This document shows positions 11,364 to 42,189 of a DNA stretch of 64,000 nucleotides, in pieces. Each line of letters opens with the position of its first letter. Position 1 is the first letter of the stretch. The stretch comes from a candidate division WOR-1 bacterium RIFOXYB2_FULL_46_45 (GTDB lineage: Bacteria; Margulisbacteria; WOR-1; XYC2-FULL-46-14): assembly GCA_001771585.1 (NCBI GenBank), contig MEUE01000001.1, positions 807,984-871,983 of the forward strand, read 5' to 3'. Made by a program: the position numbers and the translations under genes. The notes beneath the pieces were generated by a model. That model did not search any database. It was not told the DNA's origin and saw only the letters and a list, made by a program, of their open reading frames with translations.

Positions 11364-13127
<1,764 letters not shown>

Positions 13128-13168
13128 TCAGGCCCATGAGGCCGAGACAAAGAGGTGTTAAATACCCG

Positions 13169-14287
13169 ATGAAAAGTCTGAAGCTTACAACCTTAATGGT
13201 TACCATCCTGGCCCTGCTGGCCACCCTATCCTACGCGGAAAAAACGACCGTTGACCTATCTATTGCCGGCTTAAGCGCCCGAACAATCGCCATGGGACGC
13301 GCCTACGTCGGAGTAGCGGATGGAGCCGATGCCCTTTTCACCAACCCGGCCGGTATCGCTACCGCGAAATCATGGGGTATCACCAGCATGCAGACCAAGC
13401 TCTTGGACCGCGTTGACTATAAGATGTTAGGCGGTATTTATTCCCTTCAGACCGGCGTAATCGGAGTCGGCTACATTGGGGCCGTCACCCCGGCCGGATT
13501 CTTGACCACCGACAAAGCCAGTTTGACCGGCGCTACCCCCATATCATATGGAAGTAATATGCTGGTTCTATCATATGGAAAAGAGGCCTATAAAAATACC
13601 TATATCGGCGCCAGTTTGAAAGCACTTAGCAATAATTTTGAAGGGGTGGACGGAAGCGGCAGCGGTTTTGATCTTGACCTTGGAATCCTGGCCCGCCCGA
13701 ACGACCAGGTCAAAGTCGGCGCAGTGATCCAGAACATTCTTCCCGGAGATATGGGTGGAAGCGTAACGTGGAAGACCAACACCAAAGACACGATTCCCGC
13801 CTATTTGAAGGTGGGGGGCAGCTACCTTTTGAATCCGAATATATTAATCGCGGCCGATCTGGATATCCCGGCCTCCTGCAGCGCTCCTCTGGCCCTGCAC
13901 AGCGGCGTTGAATGGAAGCCGCTCCCGATGCTGGCCTTGAGAGGCGGTTTGGACCAGAGTTCGACCGGTAAAAACGAGACGGTAACCGATTTCGCGATCG
14001 GGGTCGGCTTGAATGTCGCCGGTTTCTCCTTTGATTATGCCTATAAAAATAACAGCCTGGTTGAAAACAACAATGCCCATTATATTTCGGTCGCTTTTTC
14101 ACCCGATAATATTGTGAAGAAAGCCCCGCCTCTGGTAGAACAGCAGGCGAAGAAAGCCAATCCGAATGAACCGGCCTTTGCCTCCGAGAAAGAACGCAAC
14201 GAATATCTCTACCTGGTTGCCACCGGCAAGACCAAGGCGCCGGTTCCGGCGGTTGTGGTTACGCAGGCGAAGGTGTTGGGGAAATAG
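13169..14287 (+). CDS. PorV/UPF0164-like outer-membrane barrel protein
   Basis: A 372-residue exported protein with signal peptide (MKSLKLTTLMVTILALLATL, cut after SYA). The mature N-terminus AGLSARTIAMGRAYVGVADG, then ALFTNPAGIA, is the hallmark of PorV/PorQ/UPF0164 beta-barrels. Alternating strands continue to about residue 320, followed by a periplasmic Lys/Pro tail. GAGGTG lies 11 bases before the chosen ATG; an upstream ATG (13136) would put residues ahead of the signal peptide. In other phyla such proteins serve surface-protein export or attachment. Confidence 0.8.
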   Translation: MKSLKLTTLMVTILALLATLSYAEKTTVDLSIAGLSARTIAMGRAYVGVADGADALFTNPAGIATAKSWGITSMQTKLLDRVDYKMLGGIYSLQTGVIGVGYIGAVTPAGFLTTDKASLTGATPISYGSNMLVLSYGKEAYKNTYIGASLKALSNNFEGVDGSGSGFDLDLGILARPNDQVKVGAVIQNILPGDMGGSVTWKTNTKDTIPAYLKVGGSYLLNPNILIAADLDIPASCSAPLALHSGVEWKPLPMLALRGGLDQSSTGKNETVTDFAIGVGLNVAGFSFDYAYKNNSLVENNNAHYISVAFSPDNIVKKAPPLVEQQAKKANPNEPAFASEKERNEYLYLVATGKTKAPVPAVVVTQAKVLGK

Positions 14288-14294
14288 GGAAAAT

Positions 14295-14317
14295 GGCCCG
14301 TAAAGGCCCGTAAGGGC
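14295..14317 (+). repeat. left inverted repeat flanking the S23 gene
   Basis: A 23-mer made of GGCCCGTAAAG and CCCGTAAGGGC pieces. It matches the reverse complement of 14767-14789 at 21 of 23 positions. It touches the S23 stop codon on one side and follows the 3' end of the barrel gene. Confidence 0.8.
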
Positions 14318-14727
14318 TACAAAGGCGAGAAGGGCTTAGGGTGATTTCCTCTCGATACTTTTAATTCTAATGCGTTAATCAGCCGATTCTGCAAAAACAT
14401 TGTTTGTATGCTTATTCTGTCAAAAGTCAAATAAAGGTTTTCGGAAATAAAATTCTTACGAAAAATTCTTCTGATCCAGTCCTGTAATTCGGCCAGGGAT
14501 CTTTTGCTGTATTTTAAAAATTTTATATACTCCTTGATCGATCCGCTATAGTATCCTTCAATAAAATTAGCAGTGCAAGAACTTGAAGCCCGCTCAATTT
14601 GATCACGAAGCTGAAAACAATTGTAGGGAATATGCTTTAAAATTTCTTTTTGTATCATCTCCTCCATTTTATCCAGATTTTTCCAAACGATCATTTTCCT
14701 GTGTCCGTATTCGCTTGTGTTTTCCAT
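14317..14727 (-). CDS. four-helix-bundle protein of the S23 / 23S rRNA intervening-sequence family
   Basis: A 136-residue helical protein. Family features: YGHRKMIVWKNLDKMEEMI at the start, LRDQIERASSSCTANFIEGY in the second helix, then KEYIKFLKYSKRSLAELQDW and a last helix with RLINAL. Relatives are encoded in 23S rRNA intervening sequences, and the Avd protein of diversity-generating retroelements has the same fold. The start at 14727 has GGAGG seven bases upstream; an upstream ATG would add 33 residues read from the repeat. The gene sits between 23-bp inverted repeats and behind a shared upstream element (14807-14834), so it looks like cargo of a small mobile unit. Confidence 0.88.
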   Translation of the reverse strand: MENTSEYGHRKMIVWKNLDKMEEMIQKEILKHIPYNCFQLRDQIERASSSCTANFIEGYYSGSIKEYIKFLKYSKRSLAELQDWIRRIFRKNFISENLYLTFDRISIQTMFLQNRLINALELKVSRGNHPKPFSPL

Positions 14728-14766
14728 TTTACTTCCTCCCTCTTTTTTTCCTTTCTTGCCCTTATT

Positions 14767-14789
14767 GCCTTTACGGGCCCTTACGGGCC
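14767..14789 (-). repeat. right inverted repeat flanking the S23 gene
   Basis: Reverse complement of this 23-mer differs from 14295-14317 at two positions only, an A/G swap in each half. Neighbouring bases continue in the same G/A-rich short-unit style (GGCAATAAGGGCAAGAAAGG on the minus strand). With the left copy it brackets the S23 gene as a 495-bp unit. Confidence 0.8.
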
Positions 14790-14806
14790 TTTTCTTCTCT
14801 CTTTTT

Positions 14807-14834
14807 CCCAGCAATTTTGCCGCCAATTTTGCGT
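14807..14834 (-). repeat. shared upstream element, copy A (before the S23 gene)
   Basis: On the minus strand it ends with the 18-mer GGCGGCAAAATTGCTGGG, preceded by ACGCAAAATT. The full 28 bases are identical to copy B at 31011-31038. It lies about 80 bases upstream of the S23 start and points towards the gene. Confidence 0.85.
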
Positions 14835-14839
14835 TTTAT

Positions 14840-14995
14840 GTCCGGCTTCCATTATCTTATCTCCAGCTTCCATACCGGCATCCACTCCCTTATCCCTACT
14901 TCCCTCCCTCGCAAGTTCCCCTTTGTTTCTTATGAAGAATAGGTTACAATAATGCCCACAGACCCCCTCTTGAAAAAAGGGGGTCGAAGGGGGAA
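14840..14995. repeat. degenerate repeats and a GACCCCC...GGGGGTC hairpin
   Basis: The segment before the large secreted-protein gene contains drifting units (CCAGCTTCCATACC, CGGCTTCCATTATC) and a hairpin at 14961-14985 with arms GACCCCC and GGGGGTC extended by an A/T pair. The hairpin belongs to the same kind of palindrome as the one inside queA at 18449-18471. No gene is supported here; open frames on either strand read only the repeat. Confidence 0.6.
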
Positions 14996-15000
14996 GAATC

Positions 15001-18000
15001 ATGAAATTATTCAAAGCTTCTATTTTTGTCATTTTTTGTTTACTATTACTGTCTTCATTAGCTTATTCGGCTGACACTAACTATCCGAATATTAACTATT
15101 TTAAGGTGGGAGGGAGCACTTCAGAAACCGGGTATATTAATAAGGATTCTTTACAAAACAACCTTATAAGTTTAGAGGTTTCGGACGGAGAAGCTGGCGA
15201 TATTGGACTTTATCAAATTGGGATCAATCTTTACAAAATCAACAAGAATGATTTAGGAAAATATTATCAATTATGGTGGCCATCGCTTTCTACTTGGATT
15301 TATTTTCCATCAAATGCGTCCACAACTCCCGTGAACGATTCACAAGGATATGCTCTTCTTAATGGCCTGTTATGGATTAATACAACCTCCTACAAGTTCT
15401 TTTCCGTTATAAAAAACTCCCAGGATGCTTATTCTAAATATCTTCTTGTTGAAGGGAGTTATTCTTCAAAAGAAAGTGATTTGGGAAAATTGGGAGAAAA
15501 TGAAGTTTTTTACTTGCGATTATCTGTAAAAGATCTGGCTACTTTAGTAACTGAATCGTCCCTATTTTCAAGGACCACCGACTTCACATCCCCCACCACC
15601 ACCATTTCCCCCCCCTCCACTAACCAAAATTCGACTACTTGGAACTATTATGTTAACAGCTCAAATTTAACCGGCGGATTTACCGGAGAAGCAAAGGACA
15701 CCCTCTCCGGAATTGATAATGTTTCCGTGGAGGTTTATGCGGGTAGCTCTCCAAATTTTTGGAGTTGGAACGGAACCGCGTGGGTGTTTTCCGGTAGCTC
15801 AATCCTTAGAATTCCGGCAACTTATAATTCTACGGCCGGAACATGGGCTTATAACACCAATATGTCAACTTTGATTGCCGGACTGAAGGATGGGGATCAT
15901 TATGCTGTAAGGATTCTTGCAAAAGATAAGGCAGGAAATCAAAACTTGGCTAATGCCACTTTTATCTACGACAACACTGCTCCAACTAACCCGACAAAAA
16001 TTGAAACTTTTAACAGCAGCTGGTTCACTACAAAATTGGTTGGAGTTCCGGATCCCAATCAAATCACCAATTTATCCTGGACAAAAGAGGCCTTTGTTCC
16101 ATTTTTTTATTTCCAAGAAGGATCTGATGCCGCCTCGGAAATCAAATCTTATGATTTTGAACTGGCAAAGTATAAAGATCCGATTGCATTTTTATTTAAA
16201 TTCCCTAAAAATTATGTTATAAAGAAAACTATTCCCTACAAAACCTCAGACACAGCATCTCCTAAAGTCTTTAATTATTACTCATCATCTGCTAATCATT
16301 TTAATGCCCCGGTTTACGAAGTACTTACAAAAGAGGCCTTGCCGGATGGACTTTATGAAGCACGGGTAAAGGCTTCGGACGAAGCAGGCAATGTTGCAAC
16401 AAACGAAGTAAGCTTTTATTTTGGCATTGACAGCAAAGCCCCAACCGCGGCAACCGAGCTTGCGGTCGCTCCGGATACCTACATAGCCTATAAATGGAAG
16501 CCGGGATCGGACGAAGTCTCCGGAATGGGTAATCCGACTATATATATTAAAGGGCCAAATGAAACATCCTTCTCGCTCTTAGACGGAAAATCATCTATCG
16601 ACCTTAAGACCGAAATTAAAACTGACTCGTCCGGAAAAAATTATTATGTATCGTCAACCAAGTTAAAGCCGGGAAATTACTCTTTTTATATCATAACAAG
16701 AGATGTGGCAGGAAACACAAACCAATCGCTCACAAAACCATTTGAGGTCAAGCTTGATGCGCCGACACTGATTTCTCCGGCAGACAAGTACAGCACAAAC
16801 AGTCTTCCCTCTTTTTCGGCAAAAACAGTATCTTTGTCATCCGAATCACCCAATTTTGTAAAAAACTACGCATTGTATATTTATGAACATTCTGAAAATG
16901 CCGACAAAGTCAACAACTATACACAAGAATATTTAACAGAAACCCAAGCAATCCTTACCCCAAAAACAGTTCTGTCTGCCAGCACAACTCAATCAGAAGT
17001 TTCCTGGAACATTAACGGAAGCTTTGATGCAAAGACCTACAGCTGGAGAATCGATGTCTATGACAATTTTGGCAACATAAAATCATCGGAAATAAGGAGA
17101 TTTACCCTAACCCAGCCGGTATATCCCAAAATCACCCTCGCTTCCCCTGCCGACAAGGCCGTAACGAACGAAAGTTCAGCAACTTTTTCTTGGGGAACCT
17201 CAACCAGCTTTACAAGCTATGACCTTTACTTAAATGGAACCAAGTATACAACCACGGCCGGAACCTATCCTTTTAAAAACCTATCGGATGGGATTTACAA
17301 ATGGTATGTGCAATCAACCGCTAATATAGGGTTGTTTTCACAAACGGTAACCTCTCAAACCTGGGAAATCACGGTTGATACCAAAGAGCCTACTATTTCT
17401 CTCTCCTCACCGGCGGAAGGGGTAAAATTCGATAACGGTTCAGCCCCTTTTGCCTGGATCGGTTCTTATAAGTTTACCAATTATGATATATATATTGATG
17501 GGAAAAAAGTGGCCGGAACAGATAAATTAACTTATTCATCTTCTCTGGGAGAGGGAAGCCATTCTTGGTATGTTTCTTCATCCTATAAAGGAACGGAAAT
17601 AAAATCAAAAACACAAAACTTTTACATTAATTCTATCGGGCCCACCATCTCCGCCAAAATAGGAAATAACACTCTAGCCAATGATGCCATCATCTCCCCC
17701 ACCGACACTTTAACCGTTGACCTCTCCGACGACAACGGGGTTTCACCCGAAACTATCGCCATTGCGATTGACGGAACCAACATCACCGGCGCGCAAATAT
17801 CGGCCAAAGATACCGCCAATAAGGCCGTCGCGGCATCTTTAAAAATGTCCTTGAAAGAAGGAACCCACACCGTCAAAATTACCGCCAAAGACGCGCTGGG
17901 AAAAGAAAACAGCATTTCTTATTCGGGAATCAAAACCTACTCCGGAAAAGCGAGAGTCCTTGCCAAACCGATGAACTATCCGAACCCCTTCAAACCGTCA

Positions 18001-18258
18001 TCGGGCTCACCGACCACCATCAATTATTCTCTCTCCGACAACGCGGATATAAAAATCATGATCTTTGATCTCGCCGGCAGAATGGTCTGGCAGAACAGCT
18101 ACCCGTCCGGTTCAACCGGCGGTAAGGTTGGAGAAAACGAAGTAACCTGGGACGGCAAATCCTCCGCCGGGCAGATCCAGGGTAACGGGGCGTATCTTTA
18201 TACTATCATCTCCGAAGGGAAGCTCCTTGAGCGGGGCGAAATGGCTATTAACGAATAA
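15001..18258 (+). CDS. large secreted multi-domain protein with a C-terminal FlgD-Ig/sorting-like domain
   Basis: A 1085-residue exported protein with signal peptide MKLFKASIFVIFCLLLLSSL, cut after AYS. It contains several Ig/fibronectin-like modules opened by related strings (LISPADKYSTNS, LASPADKAVTNES, SLSSPAEGVKFDNGS). The last ~95 residues (MNYPNPFKPSSGSPTTINYS ... GNGAYLYTIISEGK) match the FlgD-Ig/type A sorting-domain style of surface proteins. GGGGGAAG precedes the ATG. The first 2.6 kb is visibly richer in A+T than the last 0.6 kb, so the gene may be a mosaic. Likely cell-surface adhesin or cell-wall-active protein; substrate unknown. Confidence 0.8.
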   Translation: MKLFKASIFVIFCLLLLSSLAYSADTNYPNINYFKVGGSTSETGYINKDSLQNNLISLEVSDGEAGDIGLYQIGINLYKINKNDLGKYYQLWWPSLSTWIYFPSNASTTPVNDSQGYALLNGLLWINTTSYKFFSVIKNSQDAYSKYLLVEGSYSSKESDLGKLGENEVFYLRLSVKDLATLVTESSLFSRTTDFTSPTTTISPPSTNQNSTTWNYYVNSSNLTGGFTGEAKDTLSGIDNVSVEVYAGSSPNFWSWNGTAWVFSGSSILRIPATYNSTAGTWAYNTNMSTLIAGLKDGDHYAVRILAKDKAGNQNLANATFIYDNTAPTNPTKIETFNSSWFTTKLVGVPDPNQITNLSWTKEAFVPFFYFQEGSDAASEIKSYDFELAKYKDPIAFLFKFPKNYVIKKTIPYKTSDTASPKVFNYYSSSANHFNAPVYEVLTKEALPDGLYEARVKASDEAGNVATNEVSFYFGIDSKAPTAATELAVAPDTYIAYKWKPGSDEVSGMGNPTIYIKGPNETSFSLLDGKSSIDLKTEIKTDSSGKNYYVSSTKLKPGNYSFYIITRDVAGNTNQSLTKPFEVKLDAPTLISPADKYSTNSLPSFSAKTVSLSSESPNFVKNYALYIYEHSENADKVNNYTQEYLTETQAILTPKTVLSASTTQSEVSWNINGSFDAKTYSWRIDVYDNFGNIKSSEIRRFTLTQPVYPKITLASPADKAVTNESSATFSWGTSTSFTSYDLYLNGTKYTTTAGTYPFKNLSDGIYKWYVQSTANIGLFSQTVTSQTWEITVDTKEPTISLSSPAEGVKFDNGSAPFAWIGSYKFTNYDIYIDGKKVAGTDKLTYSSSLGEGSHSWYVSSSYKGTEIKSKTQNFYINSIGPTISAKIGNNTLANDAIISPTDTLTVDLSDDNGVSPETIAIAIDGTNITGAQISAKDTANKAVAASLKMSLKEGTHTVKITAKDALGKENSISYSGIKTYSGKARVLAKPMNYPNPFKPSSGSPTTINYSLSDNADIKIMIFDLAGRMVWQNSYPSGSTGGKVGENEVTWDGKSSAGQIQGNGAYLYTIISEGKLLERGEMAINE

Positions 18259-19300
18259 ACATCGCATCGCCGAAGGAAAAAAAGCGGTAGTGCTTTAATA
18301 TCGCCTCGCGGTAGGCGTCGAGGATAAATTCCCGCCCCGCAAAAGCGCTAACCATCATCAACAAAGTCGTCCTCGGAAAATGAAAATTGGTGATCATGGC
18401 ATCAATGACTTTGAATTTGTATCCAGGTTTGATGAATAAATTTGTCTTCCCCTCTCTTGAAAAGAGAGGGGTTAGGGGTGAGTTCGATTCTAATGCCCTC
18501 ACCGTCGTTGTTCCAACGGCAATGACCCTCCTGGCCTTTTTAATCGCTTCCCTTGTCTCCTCCGGCACCTCGAAGGATTCGGAGTGCATCTTGTGCTCTT
18601 CAATGTTCTCGGCATAGACCGGCCGAAAAGTATCCAATCCGGTATGGAGCGTTACATAGGCGATTTTGATCCCCTTCTTTTTTATTTTTGAAAGCAGCTT
18701 TTTTGTGAAGTGCAACCCGGCCGTCGGCGCAGCCGAAGCTCCCAATTTATCGGCATAGACGGTTTGATATCGTTTGGATAATTTGGATTTAGAATTTTGA
18801 GCTTGTTTAGAGTTTAGAGTTTCGGATTTAATGTAAGGAGGCAACGGTATCTTCCCGTTTCTCTTCATAAACTTTTCAAGATTCCCCTTAAATTCAATAA
18901 TCTGTTCTCCCGATCCGGTCTTCTCCAAAACCGTTCCGATCAATTCCCCTTTTCCAAAAATAATCCGGGATCCAACTTTTAATCTTTTTCCCGGCTTCAC
19001 CAGGCATTTTTGAATGCGGCCCGTACGGACAGGACAATGTCCTGTCCCTAGCAATAAAACATGAATCTTCGCCGTCCCCCCTTCTTTGATCCCCTCAATC
19101 TGCGCCGGGAGAACTTTTGTATCATTCAAAACCAAAAGATCCCCTTTGTGAAGATAATCAATAATATCGGGAAACTTTTTATGTTCGATTGTCTTTTGTC
19201 CGGCATCCAAAACCATAAGCTTACTTCCATCCCTCTTCGATGCGGGCGTTTGGGCAATCAAATCTTGTGGAAGCTCATAATCAAAATCGGAGGTTCTCAT
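18248..19300 (-). CDS. queA: S-adenosylmethionine:tRNA ribosyltransferase-isomerase with three inserts
   Basis: Makes epoxyqueuosine in tRNA from preQ1 and AdoMet, following Tgt. The product has 350 residues: N-terminus DYELPQDLIAQTPASKRDGS, then DLLVLNDTKVLPAQ, LGASAAPTAGLHFT and ITNFHFPRTTLLMMVSAFAG. Three segments are foreign to the family: GTGHCPVRTG (encoded by the palindrome 19027-19047), KSETLNSKQAQNSKSKLS (repeat 18772-18836) and NSPLTPLFSREG (palindrome 18449-18471). All keep the frame. The core motifs are intact, so activity is expected. The 3' end overlaps the convergent secreted-protein gene by 11 bases. Confidence 0.92.
   Translation of the reverse strand: MRTSDFDYELPQDLIAQTPASKRDGSKLMVLDAGQKTIEHKKFPDIIDYLHKGDLLVLNDTKVLPAQIEGIKEGGTAKIHVLLLGTGHCPVRTGRIQKCLVKPGKRLKVGSRIIFGKGELIGTVLEKTGSGEQIIEFKGNLEKFMKRNGKIPLPPYIKSETLNSKQAQNSKSKLSKRYQTVYADKLGASAAPTAGLHFTKKLLSKIKKKGIKIAYVTLHTGLDTFRPVYAENIEEHKMHSESFEVPEETREAIKKARRVIAVGTTTVRALESNSPLTPLFSREGKTNLFIKPGYKFKVIDAMITNFHFPRTTLLMMVSAFAGREFILDAYREAILKHYRFFSFGDAMFIR
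18449..18471. repeat. palindrome inside queA encoding SPLTPLFSREG
   Basis: CCCCTCTCTT, a 3-base loop and AAGAGAGGGG give a perfect hairpin with 10-bp arms, followed by TTAGGGGTGAG. Repeats of this type, read as SPLTPL..., are widespread in environmental genomes (general knowledge). Here it sits in frame in queA, close to the conserved TTVRALE segment. Confidence 0.75.
18772..18836. repeat. short-period repeat inside queA
   Basis: The plus strand reads as drifting copies of TTTGGAT, TTTAGA and GAGTTTAGAGTTT. It encodes a Ser/Lys/Gln/Asn-rich insert before RYQTVYA of QueA. The composition differs from the surrounding gene. Confidence 0.6.
19027..19047. repeat. 21-bp perfect palindrome inside queA
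   Basis: GGACAGGACA, one A, then TGTCCTGTCC: a perfect inverted repeat with 10-bp arms. It is translated as part of GTGHCPVRTG, a stretch absent from normal QueA. Confidence 0.75.
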
Positions 19301-19319
19301 TTATTTTCCGTTCTCTCAA

Positions 19320-19510
19320 ATTTTTATCGCGAATCGTCGGTCCCGAATGAATTCTAATCCTCCAGCTCGAATGGGAAGTCCCGAATACTCAAATACATTT
19401 CTCAAATCTTTCCTCCCCACCGGGGAGGGGCAATTCGAGAACAAATTCGGGGATTTGAGATCATTTGGGATATTAATTCGTGATAAAAATTCGGGACTTC
19501 TTTTTTTATT
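19320..19510. repeat. palindromic repeat cluster between queA and the DUF2905 gene
   Basis: The outer arms GAAGTCCCGAAT (19372-19383) and ATTCGGGACTTC (19489-19500) are perfectly inverted. Inside are TCTCAAATC and GATTTGAGA and a central hairpin CCTCCCCACCGGGGAGGGG. Words such as ATTCGGGACTT and CTCGAAT recur at 31.06-31.22 kb. The structure resembles a MITE-like palindromic element. No gene is seen in these 216 bases. Confidence 0.65.
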
Positions 19511-21409: not shown

Positions 21410-22087
21410 ATGTTATCCATCATAGCCCCCGCATTAAACGAAGGAAAAAACCTGCCGGAGCTGGCAGAGAGGATATTCAATTCGGTCCCAAAAGATTCCG
21501 AATTGATTATAGTCGATGACAATTCACAAGATAACACGGCTGAAACCGCCAAAAAGCTCTCCCAAAAATTCAATCTAACACTCCTCTCCCGCCCCAAGCG
21601 GCTGGGACTTTCTTCCGCCGTAATCGATGGGTTTAAACTCGCCAAAGGAAATATTTTGGCGGTGATCGACGCCGATCTCCAGCATCCGCCGGAAGCTTTG
21701 TCCGGAATGCTGGCAAGGATTGAGACCAATTGCGCCGATTTTGTCGTCGGCAGCCGCCTGGTTGCCGGCGGAGGATCAAAAGATTGGCCCTGGTACCGAA
21801 AAATCATCTCTCTTGTCGCGCGTATTCCGGCGATGCCTTTAACCAAAGTTATGGATTTGACCTCCGGTTTTTTTATGTTAAAAAAAGAGGTGATAGAAGG
21901 GGTTGCTTTGAACCCGATCGGCTTCAAGATCTGCCTTGAGATCCTCTGCCGGGGAAAATACCGGAGGGTAGAAGAATACCCGATTATCTTTGGGGAGAGG
22001 CGGCAGGGAAAAAGTAAACTCGGCTCAAAACAAACATTTGAATATCTGGTGCAATTAATGGGACTCTACCTCAAAAAAAAGGCATAG
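21410..22087 (+). CDS. GT2 glycosyltransferase, dolichol/polyprenol-phosphate mannosyltransferase type
   Basis: A 225-residue GT-A enzyme: LSIIAPALNEGKNLPELAER at the N-terminus, VDDNSQDNTAE near 37 (nucleotide-sugar Asp), and AVIDADLQHPPEAL near 82 (the DxD-type metal site). It resembles Dpm1-like enzymes that load a sugar onto a polyprenyl phosphate. No C-terminal membrane domain is present. The ArnT/PMT-type transferase at 31.2-32.5 kb uses such lipid-linked sugars, so the two could act in sequence. Confidence 0.85.
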   Translation: MLSIIAPALNEGKNLPELAERIFNSVPKDSELIIVDDNSQDNTAETAKKLSQKFNLTLLSRPKRLGLSSAVIDGFKLAKGNILAVIDADLQHPPEALSGMLARIETNCADFVVGSRLVAGGGSKDWPWYRKIISLVARIPAMPLTKVMDLTSGFFMLKKEVIEGVALNPIGFKICLEILCRGKYRRVEEYPIIFGERRQGKSKLGSKQTFEYLVQLMGLYLKKKA

Positions 22088-22206
22088 GCACAGGCATAGG
22101 CATAGGAAGGGAAAGGATAGGAAAGAAAAAAAGGAAAGGAAAAATATTATATTTATTTTCCTTTCCTTCGCCTTACCTGCGCCTACGCCTATGCCTCCGC
22201 CTTAAT
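22079..22206. repeat. long imperfect palindrome between convergent genes
   Basis: The left arm is built from AGGCATAGGC and AGGAAGGGAAAGGATAGG units; the right arm read in reverse gives AGGCATAGGCGTAGGCGCAGG and AAGGAAAGGAAAA. The AT-rich centre AAAAATATTATATTTATTTT closes the hairpin. It lies between the ends of the GT2 and DUF151 genes and could terminate both. GCCTAYGCCT units are shared with the S1 linker at 10.18 kb. Confidence 0.65.
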
Positions 22207-30106: not shown

Positions 30107-30453
30107 AAAACAACCTCCTTCTCCTTGATTTGGGAAACAATGTAACCGTTGACCTCTTCTTTTTCGGCCACCGACTGCCCTTTCCCGTTTATTTCGACAC
30201 AAGCAATCGGGGAAGCGCCGGCCAAAAGACCGGTCAATCTGATATAGCCGTCTTTTATCGGAACCGGCTCAGCTCCGAGAGTCAGCCCGATAATTTTGGC
30301 CCGGTTCGCTCCCCCATAGGTAAACACTGCCTCGCTCGTCGTTGCTGTTTCTTCCTGTTGTTGTGGATTGATGATTTCCGGTTGTTTTTGAGGGGAAGAG
30401 CAGGAAGACAAAAAAAGCGACAACACCATGATTATCCAAAAAAGATTTCTCAT
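30091..30453 (-). CDS. PilP/GspC-like lipoprotein
   Basis: A 120-residue lipoprotein with lipobox LSSC at residues 16-19. After a Gln/Glu/Thr-rich linker comes a small beta domain with YGGANRAKIIGLTLG and GYIVSQIKEKEVVLCL, which resembles the PDZ-less HR domain of PilP/GspC that docks onto the secretin. It overlaps the secretin gene by 16 bases. Its ATG overlaps the stop of the ORF6N gene as ATGA, so translation is coupled to an accessory gene. Confidence 0.7.
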   Translation of the reverse strand: MRNLFWIIMVLSLFLSSCSSPQKQPEIINPQQQEETATTSEAVFTYGGANRAKIIGLTLGAEPVPIKDGYIRLTGLLAGASPIACVEINGKGQSVAEKEEVNGYIVSQIKEKEVVLCLKK

Positions 30454-30998
30454 TTCTCTTCCTCTCTATCCGCCAAAAAACCGATGCGTCTTTTCGGCCT
30501 CGAAGGCGGCGCCATAAGCTGACGAATGGCATCGAAGACACCTTTAGTTTCTATCTCGTTCTTTTCGACTCTTCTTTCCAGTTCCGCCAGCTTATGCGCC
30601 AAATCTTTATGGGTCGCTATTATTTCTCGGAGTTTCACAAACGACCGCATGATAGCTATATTTACCTGAACTGCCCTTTCACTATTAAGGACAGAAGATA
30701 ACATGGCTACCCCTTGCTCCGTAAAAACGGTAACTTTTTTGGAAAACTTTAATGTAGCGGATTGTCTCCTTGAAAAGGAAGTCACAAATTGTGACATCCT
30801 CAAAATTTCCTGTCTTGTCAAGGAAAACATAAAGTCTTCCGGAAATCTATCCCTTTTTCTTTTCACTGCTTGGTTTAAAACTTTTGTTTGTGTCCCATAA
30901 AGCTCTGCCAAATCGCGATCCAGCATCACTTTTTGGCCTCTGATCAAGAAGATCTTCTTTTCGATGATTTGAGCAGGAATCAAATTGGCTTTGTCCAT
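30450..30998 (-). CDS. ORF6N-domain protein
   Basis: A 182-residue protein. Residues about 8-95 are the ORF6N DNA-binding-type domain found in phage and mobile genes: KKIFLIRGQKVMLDRDLAEL, YGTQTKVLNQAVKRKRDRFP, FMFSLTRQEI and VTVFTEQGVAMLSSVL. A coiled coil follows (about 120-160). Copy B of the shared upstream element ends only 12 bases before the ATG. The gene is inserted at the head of the secretin operon and overlaps its first gene, suggesting it arrived as a cassette. Role unknown. Confidence 0.88.
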   Translation of the reverse strand: MDKANLIPAQIIEKKIFLIRGQKVMLDRDLAELYGTQTKVLNQAVKRKRDRFPEDFMFSLTRQEILRMSQFVTSFSRRQSATLKFSKKVTVFTEQGVAMLSSVLNSERAVQVNIAIMRSFVKLREIIATHKDLAHKLAELERRVEKNEIETKGVFDAIRQLMAPPSRPKRRIGFLADREEEK

Positions 30999-31059: not shown

Positions 31060-31232
31060 TTTTTATCTCAAATCAACCTCTCGAATCAATGCGAACAGGG
31101 CAGGTCCCGAATTAAGAACTCGAATGCTCGAATCGACTCTCGAACCCTTTCAAGATTCGAGATTAAATTCGAGGATTCGGGACTTTTATTTGAGACCCTT
31201 TCATTCGAATTTATTCGGGATTATTGATTAGA
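31060..31232. repeat. degenerate palindromic repeats upstream of the ORF6N gene
   Basis: Drifting units of CTCGAAT, ATTCGAGGATTCGGGAC and their complements fill the gap between the ORF6N gene and the glycosyltransferase gene. GTCCCGAAT and ATTCGGGAC face each other, as in the 19.3-19.5 kb cluster. No gene is visible in these 238 bases. Confidence 0.65.
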
Positions 31233-31236
31233 GAGC

Positions 31237-37817: not shown

Positions 37818-38642
37818 ATGAGTAATCAAAAAATCAATGTAAAAGGAACCGAAATAGCTATTTTTAATCGGAAGGAGGAAGACTATATATCTCTTACAGA
37901 TATTGCGAGATACAAAGATTCGGAAAGAAGTGATTATGTCCTTCAAAACTGGATAAGAAACCGTAGTACCATTGAGTTTTTGGGGTTGTGGGAGAAAATT
38001 AATAACCCAAACTTTAAACCCATCGAATTCGATGGGTTTAAAAACGAATCTGGAACCAACAGTTTCTCTCTTACTCCCAAAAAATGGATTGCGGCAACAA
38101 GCGCCATTGGATTAATTTCCAAACCGGGTCGCTTTGGCGGTGGCACTTATGCCCATAAAGATATCGCTTTTGAGTTCGCTTCCTGGATCTCGGCGGAGTT
38201 TAAGCTCTATCTCATCAAGGAATTCCAGCGGCTTAAAGAAGAAGAAAATAAGCGGCTTGCCGTCGGTTGGGATACCAGGCGAATGCTGACAAAAATAAAT
38301 TATCGCATCCACACGGATGCCGTCAAAGAACATCTTGTCCCAAAAGAAATCTCAAAACCATTATCAAACATCATCTTTGCAAATGAAGCCGATCTGCTCA
38401 ACAAAGCATTATTTGGAGTAACCGCCAAGGAATGGCAGGAGAAAAACCCGGGCCTTGAAGGAAATATTCGTGACTATGCCGATGTAACTCAGTTAGTTTG
38501 TCTGGCTAATTTAGAGGTTTTGAATGCCGAGTTTATTCGTCAAGGCCTGCTACAGATGGAAAGATTGGTAAGACTCAATCAAATTGCCATTATTCAAATG
38601 AAATCATTAACCGCTAATAATTCTATCAGAAAGTTGGGTTAA
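37818..38642 (+). CDS. KilA-N-domain protein
   Basis: A 274-residue protein. Residues about 5-110 are the KilA-N DNA-binding-type domain common in phages and mobile genes: ISLTDIARYKDSERSDYVLQ, NWIRNRSTIEFLGLWE, then GRFGGGTYAHKDIAFEFASW. The C-terminal half is helical (EWQEKNPGLEGNIRDYADVT) and resembles the tail found on stand-alone bacterial KilA-N proteins. AGGAGGGG precedes the ATG. It is inserted between the pseudokinase and rnf operons. Function is unknown; phage-derived or defence-related roles are possible. Confidence 0.9.
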   Translation: MSNQKINVKGTEIAIFNRKEEDYISLTDIARYKDSERSDYVLQNWIRNRSTIEFLGLWEKINNPNFKPIEFDGFKNESGTNSFSLTPKKWIAATSAIGLISKPGRFGGGTYAHKDIAFEFASWISAEFKLYLIKEFQRLKEEENKRLAVGWDTRRMLTKINYRIHTDAVKEHLVPKEISKPLSNIIFANEADLLNKALFGVTAKEWQEKNPGLEGNIRDYADVTQLVCLANLEVLNAEFIRQGLLQMERLVRLNQIAIIQMKSLTANNSIRKLG

Positions 38643-42061: not shown

Positions 42062-42186
42062 CGGGAGAAGAAAATCAGATTATCCGTGAATCAGGGCGAG
42101 AGAATCAGAATATTAGAGCATCAGATTATCTGGTTTTCCGATGTTCTGGTATTCTAGCTCTGATAAACTGATTTTCTGGTATTCCT
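42062..42186. repeat. degenerate repeats upstream of rnfD
   Basis: Drifting units AATCAGATTATC, AGAATCAGAATATTAG and their complements (GATTTTCTGGTATTC) form an imperfect palindrome. No gene is seen here. Confidence 0.6.
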
Positions 42187-42189
42187 CAA

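Follow-up and report, generated by a model that had tools for sequence, protein, structure and literature searches.

What kind of element is formed by an S23 gene that is located between the genes for a barrel protein and a secreted protein and is flanked on both sides by inverted repeats? The question is raised by one locus in the window, the whole stretch of 64,000 nt from a candidate division WOR-1 bacterium that was analysed here. The gene (14317–14727, minus strand) encodes an S23 (23S rRNA-intervening-sequence) protein of 136 amino acids with a pI of 9.5, which matches Pfam PF05635 with 63.2 bits (E = 3e-17) and 2GSC (XCC0516) in a phmmer search (E = 9e-5). Its start is most likely the ATG at 14727, located behind the ribosome binding site GGGAGG; a TTG at 14826 was dropped in favour of this ATG. 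S23 is the only open reading frame between the arms of the repeat, and there is no transposase in the unit.

The inverted repeat is real, and is longer than noted earlier. Positions 14295–14317 (GGCCCGTAAAGGCCCGTAAGGGC) are identical to the reverse complement of 14767–14789 (GGCCCGTAAGGGCCCGTAAAGGC) at 21 of 23 positions, the same count as given in the preliminary description, and these 23-mers form the core of a longer pair (14291–14334 with 14750–14793) of 44 nt that is 82% complementary, with the arms 415 nt apart. The local alignment score of the S23 flanks is 34, compared with a maximum of 30 in 5000 first-order Markov randomisations, and of 19 among 2421 block pairs with equal spacing taken from the window. 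Just one of the flanks of 58 other window genes scores >16, and none >22. Both arms were located by repeat search on the minus strand. Read in the sense of the gene, the upstream arm (14750–14793) is an array of words, AAAAGGCCCGTAAGGGCCCGTAAAGGCAATAAGGGCAAGAAAGG, with the AAGGC/AAGGGC words that are typical of this S23 subfamily, while the downstream arm (14291–14334) is its reverse complement. The repeats had been said to enclose the gene exactly, with one touching the stop codon. The arms do bracket S23, and the left arm contains the stop codon (14317–14319) together with the last ~5 codons.

In the predicted RNA fold of 14289–14797 the terminal inverted repeats close the unit as a long stem (dG = −136.3 kcal/mol, z = −4.67), and the S23 reading frame occupies the loop. 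A search of 13900–15200 against Rfam gave no match to a known RNA family. The word of the unit is ~10 nt in length, not 7 nt. Further copies of this word with no more than one mismatch number 12 in the genome, the same as for a reversed-pattern control, so that exact-word counting says little.

The preliminary description had also pointed to a shared element outside the right repeat, and had cited it in favour of a mobile unit. From its match to the consensus TGGN8TTGC this element (TTGGCGGCAAAATTGCTGG, 14808–14826, minus strand) is a predicted sigma-54 (−24/−12) promoter, rather than a transposon end. The predicted transcription start (~14797) adjoins the upstream arm at its outer end. The genome contains rpoN and 14 exact occurrences of TTGGCGGCAAAATTGCTGG, and of 99 S23 genes in the class 34 have the consensus upstream, compared with 3 on the opposite strand and none for the reversed sequence. 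The site is not specific to S23, because it also precedes ORF6N, KilA-N and GxxExxY genes in the genome. ORF6N and KilA-N genes having the element in common with S23 are located at 30450–30998 and 37818–38642 of the window and at L059, L061 and L063; an ORF6N-like gene is apparently tandemly duplicated at C3:437–438 kb. Some units, including that of the window, have the promoter outside the arms and others (such as L106) have it inside, and the start of transcription is thus not always at the outer end of an arm.

Bracketing by word arrays is a general property of S23 genes, both in the class and in other phyla. Each gene was given a flank score by aligning its 220 nt of upstream sequence with the 220 nt downstream, taken as reverse complement. 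For 98 S23 genes from 31 genomes (WOR-1/Saganbacteria, including public records of both) the median is 18.5, compared with 11 for flanks mispaired within or between genomes. Fifty-four of the 98 lie above the 95th percentile of the mispaired flanks and 32 above the 99th (Mann–Whitney p = 5e-26, treating as independent loci some of which are related). Among 75 loci of public genomes, of which almost all belong to other phyla (Bacteroidota, Planctomycetota, Chloroflexota, Desulfobacterota, Bacillota, Patescibacteria and others), the corresponding numbers are 48 and 26 (p = 1e-36). All 11 S23 genes on cyanobacterial plasmids are bracketed with scores of 19–36, where mispaired scores are also high because words are common to several loci. 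By flank score ~40% of S23 loci have no clear bracketing. The brackets are inverted arrays of quasi-repeated words of 7–10 nt; the best period of the best-scoring arms is 7 or 14 in 50 of 81 and 8 in 16 of 81. In 70 cases the upstream arm is rich in purines on the gene strand, and in 8 it is rich in pyrimidines; the median distance from the end of this arm to the start codon is 18 nt. Of 100 S23 genes, 21 have a tRNA gene within 600 nt (0 of 41 control loci), some of these being orthologous and so representing fewer independent events. These genes are mostly on the tRNA strand, with several located between tRNAs. Units within tRNA gene clusters, mostly in the direction of the tRNAs, include L089, L090, L092, L110 and L124, with others.

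The type of word follows the S23 subfamily. The share of S23 pairs at non-syntenic sites that have similar arrays is ~3% where the proteins are <40% identical, rising to 22% at 55–60% identity, 44% at 60–65%, 67% at 65–70% and 82% at ≥70%; in reversed controls it is at most 11%. Ten S23 genes are present in the genome of the window (1.70 Mb, 99.5% complete). The nine whose flanks were read are unlinked and have different words in each case, and the genome contains no second S23 copy of the subfamily to which the window gene belongs. That subfamily (motif HRKMIVW) has four relatives of 52–59% identity, in other families and at unrelated sites. Each of the four lies between arrays of AAGGC/AAGGGC words, with 8–20 of these per 130 nt compared with a mean of 1.1 at other S23 loci. 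The coupling of word and protein seen in these sequences is consistent with cognate recognition by S23, but is no proof of it, and may at least partly be simple co-inheritance.

Gain and loss of the units can be followed in several relatives. In two Desulfobacterota genomes S23 genes that are 86–93% identical lie at four unrelated sites, and the units align over ~560 bp, arms included, with sharp ends on both sides. Three sites on cyanobacterial plasmids have counterparts, on plasmids closely related to them, that lack the unit. In Picosynechococcus PCC 7003 an S23 unit separates cas10 from cmr3, which are divided by a 12-nt gap in PCC 7002; in Anabaena sp. 90 a unit lies between cas6 and cas4, at a place where Dolichospermum, with flanks 98–99% identical, has unrelated sequence; and in Nostoc edaphicum a unit separates nrdB from nrdA, which in Calothrix NIES-4105 have only a short spacer between them. 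The word arrays are gone together with the gene in all three, and in the cas10/cmr3 and nrdB/nrdA pairs they are the outermost part of the unit. CRISPR-cas operons on cyanobacterial plasmids interrupted by S23 units at cas6/cas4 or cas10/cmr3 are found at L301, L304 and L307. Within one WOR-1 genus a site carries a unit in one genome (G011) and is without it in another (G014), gene and arrays being absent together. For L107 no two-sided empty site was found. Since the empty sites lose both gene and arrays, and the four Desulfobacterota units have sharp ends, S23 and its arrays behave as a mobile unit lacking a transposase.

These comparisons bear on a quite different explanation, in which S23 is a stationary and autoregulated gene, with arrays that act as iteron-like operators, RNA-stability stems or terminators and have grown by slipped-strand replication. 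Change of heptamer copy number by slippage is known in the Coxiella intervening sequence (PMC4990558), and a different unit occupies the same site in both G011 and G014 (protein 96% identical, DNA 93–98% identical per block) with one indel in the array further downstream. Presence and absence at several orthologous sites, and closely similar S23 proteins at unrelated sites, argue against it, and we regard a stationary gene as improbable.

At the window locus itself parts of the block tgt–secreted protein–barrel–queA are kept in order in four relatives (G004, G006, G008 and G009), where comparison confirmed that S23 is absent. The unit is thus not fixed at this site. In the window (11991–19300) the barrel gene precedes that of the secreted protein, an order swapped relative to the four genomes, and it is at this new junction that the S23 unit is found. 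An exact empty counterpart of the site is lacking, as the surrounding gene order differs from that of the relatives. By inspection no target-site duplication is seen at the window copy or at the cyanobacterial empty sites; in both cases the flanks are too diverged to exclude a short one. The proposal of a mobile unit of ~0.5 kb without a transposase is therefore borne out in relatives, by the empty sites and the four Desulfobacterota insertions. For the window copy, which shows neither a target-site duplication nor a second copy of its subfamily, movement is inferred. Our favoured interpretation, which we hold to be reasonably likely, is that the window locus is one member of a widespread set of small mobile units, in which S23 forms a loop between mirrored, subfamily-typical word arrays that serve as the ends.

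Word hairpins also occur without S23. There are four further intergenic examples in the window (19319–19491, 22079–22203, 31066–31234 and 42067–42187), making ~1 per 16 kb, which if typical would correspond to roughly a hundred per genome. They suggest a second explanation, that the word hairpin, of REP/MITE or STRR-like kind, is the older element, and that S23 and other small genes have inserted into the loops as passengers. The hairpin at 31066–31234 belongs to a family of about ten solo copies in the genome with 73–97% identity, one member of which (L253, G000:C1:466055–466617) is a word hairpin of ~200 bp with a nuclease-like GxxExxY gene (PF13366, PDDEXK_3) exactly in its loop. Three S23-free loci (L009, L015 and L017) have the words of the window unit in common with it, as seen by whole-arm alignment. 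Insertion into an older hairpin is harder to reconcile with the S23 data, where the empty sites of cyanobacteria and WOR-1 lack arrays and gene alike, gene and arms travel jointly in the Desulfobacterota units, and the word type follows the S23 subfamily across genera. We consider it unlikely as a general account, yet the gene in the loop at L253 keeps it alive for the GxxExxY family. GxxExxY genes of the class are bracketed, with 17 of 21 scoring >16, a value also exceeded by 14% of mispaired flanks because the words share a common grammar, roughly CNCNAAT/CNCNAAG. Only four records of GxxExxY genes were found on plasmids. Direct duplications occur at two solo hairpins, an 81-bp tail of an NtrC-like gene at L249 and ~20 bp at L250, and none at the other five of the seven copies examined, so target-site duplication at solo hairpins is not general.

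The S23 units can be compared with several known systems. In Coxiella the intervening sequence of 23S rRNA is an element of 428 nt with an S23 reading frame in the loop of a stem and, just upstream of that frame, tandem GACAGAT heptamers whose copy number differs between strains; it is excised by RNase III (PMC4990558). Like those of Coxiella and Leptospira, the window unit of about 430–500 nt has its S23 frame in the loop of a long stem. It differs in being intergenic, rather than located in helix 25 or 45 of 23S rRNA, in its words of ~10 nt rather than heptamers, and in having its own putative sigma-54 promoter and ribosome binding site; RNase III excision is only predicted here. Because the plan of the Coxiella element (S23 frame, stem and tandem heptamers) matches, units of the window type are probably intergenic relatives of the ribosomal intervening sequences, with word arrays as their ends.

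The STRR of cyanobacteria are intergenic quasi-tandem heptamers, often in inverted pairs. Heptamer arrays of similar character have been described in Xanthomonas (GGGAATC) and Nostoc (PMC4692102) and in Beggiatoaceae (TAACTGA; PMC4679880). These reports make no mention of S23, whereas the arrays described here enclose a gene, S23, and move along with it. No literature linking S23 genes outside rRNA to word arrays was found in a search that excluded preprints and most subscription journals. MITEs and REPINs are also short and intergenic, with inverted ends, no transposase and multi-copy solo forms. The ends of S23 units are instead degenerate arrays that differ between units, a conserved gene is carried, and inspection showed no target-site duplication. 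REP/RAYT systems have a Y1 transposase beside the repeats and the window unit has none; the two Y1_Tnp genes of the genome are both elsewhere. One of the loci of the genome (L053/L245, G000:C1:696665–697251) has a Y1 (RAYT-like) transposase gene amid REP-like CCCCACA…TGTGGGG hairpins.

A further possibility is that S23 is an Avd-like protein belonging to a diversity-generating retroelement, and that a reverse transcriptase acting in trans mobilises or diversifies it, as had been thought plausible for mobility. PF05635 proteins resemble Avd, with which S23 shares a homologous four-helix fold, and a relation between 4DWL and 2GSC has been reported (PMC10053308). The 99.5% complete genome nevertheless gave no match to RVT_1 (PF00078) despite its ten S23 genes. 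Since it lacks a reverse transcriptase the retroelement link is not supported and the likeness to Avd is structural only; we consider this explanation very improbable.

For the mobile unit with mirrored arrays, the following sequence of events is proposed. The S23 gene would be transcribed from the sigma-54 promoter, and the arms could then pair in the RNA as a long stem enclosing the reading frame, as in the 23S rRNA intervening sequences. A double-strand-specific RNase (RNase III) may cut the unit from host transcripts, and this would account for the tolerance of units in tRNA operons and midway through CRISPR and nrd operons. The S23 protein is basic and is likely to recognise the words of its own unit; the unit would be moved by a factor acting in trans, or by S23 together with host enzymes. 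More tentatively, and with some doubt on our part, S23 and GxxExxY genes might both represent minimal mobile elements found throughout the bacteria, having cognate arrays of short degenerate words as ends in place of fixed inverted repeats, and a protein that is specific for the words of its own unit and helps to move or build the arrays, with ribosomal intervening sequences and the STRR heptamers of cyanobacteria as branches or remnants.

The mobile-unit interpretation joins puzzles that are handled apart in the papers found, namely the ribosomal intervening sequences, the heptamer repeats abundant in bacterial genomes and the numerous ‘four helix bundle’ genes that are orphans. It also proposes for S23 a function open to test, the recognition of its own word array. 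If it is true, mobile elements can have degenerate and subfamily-specific ends, which would be missed by programs that look for exact terminal repeats.
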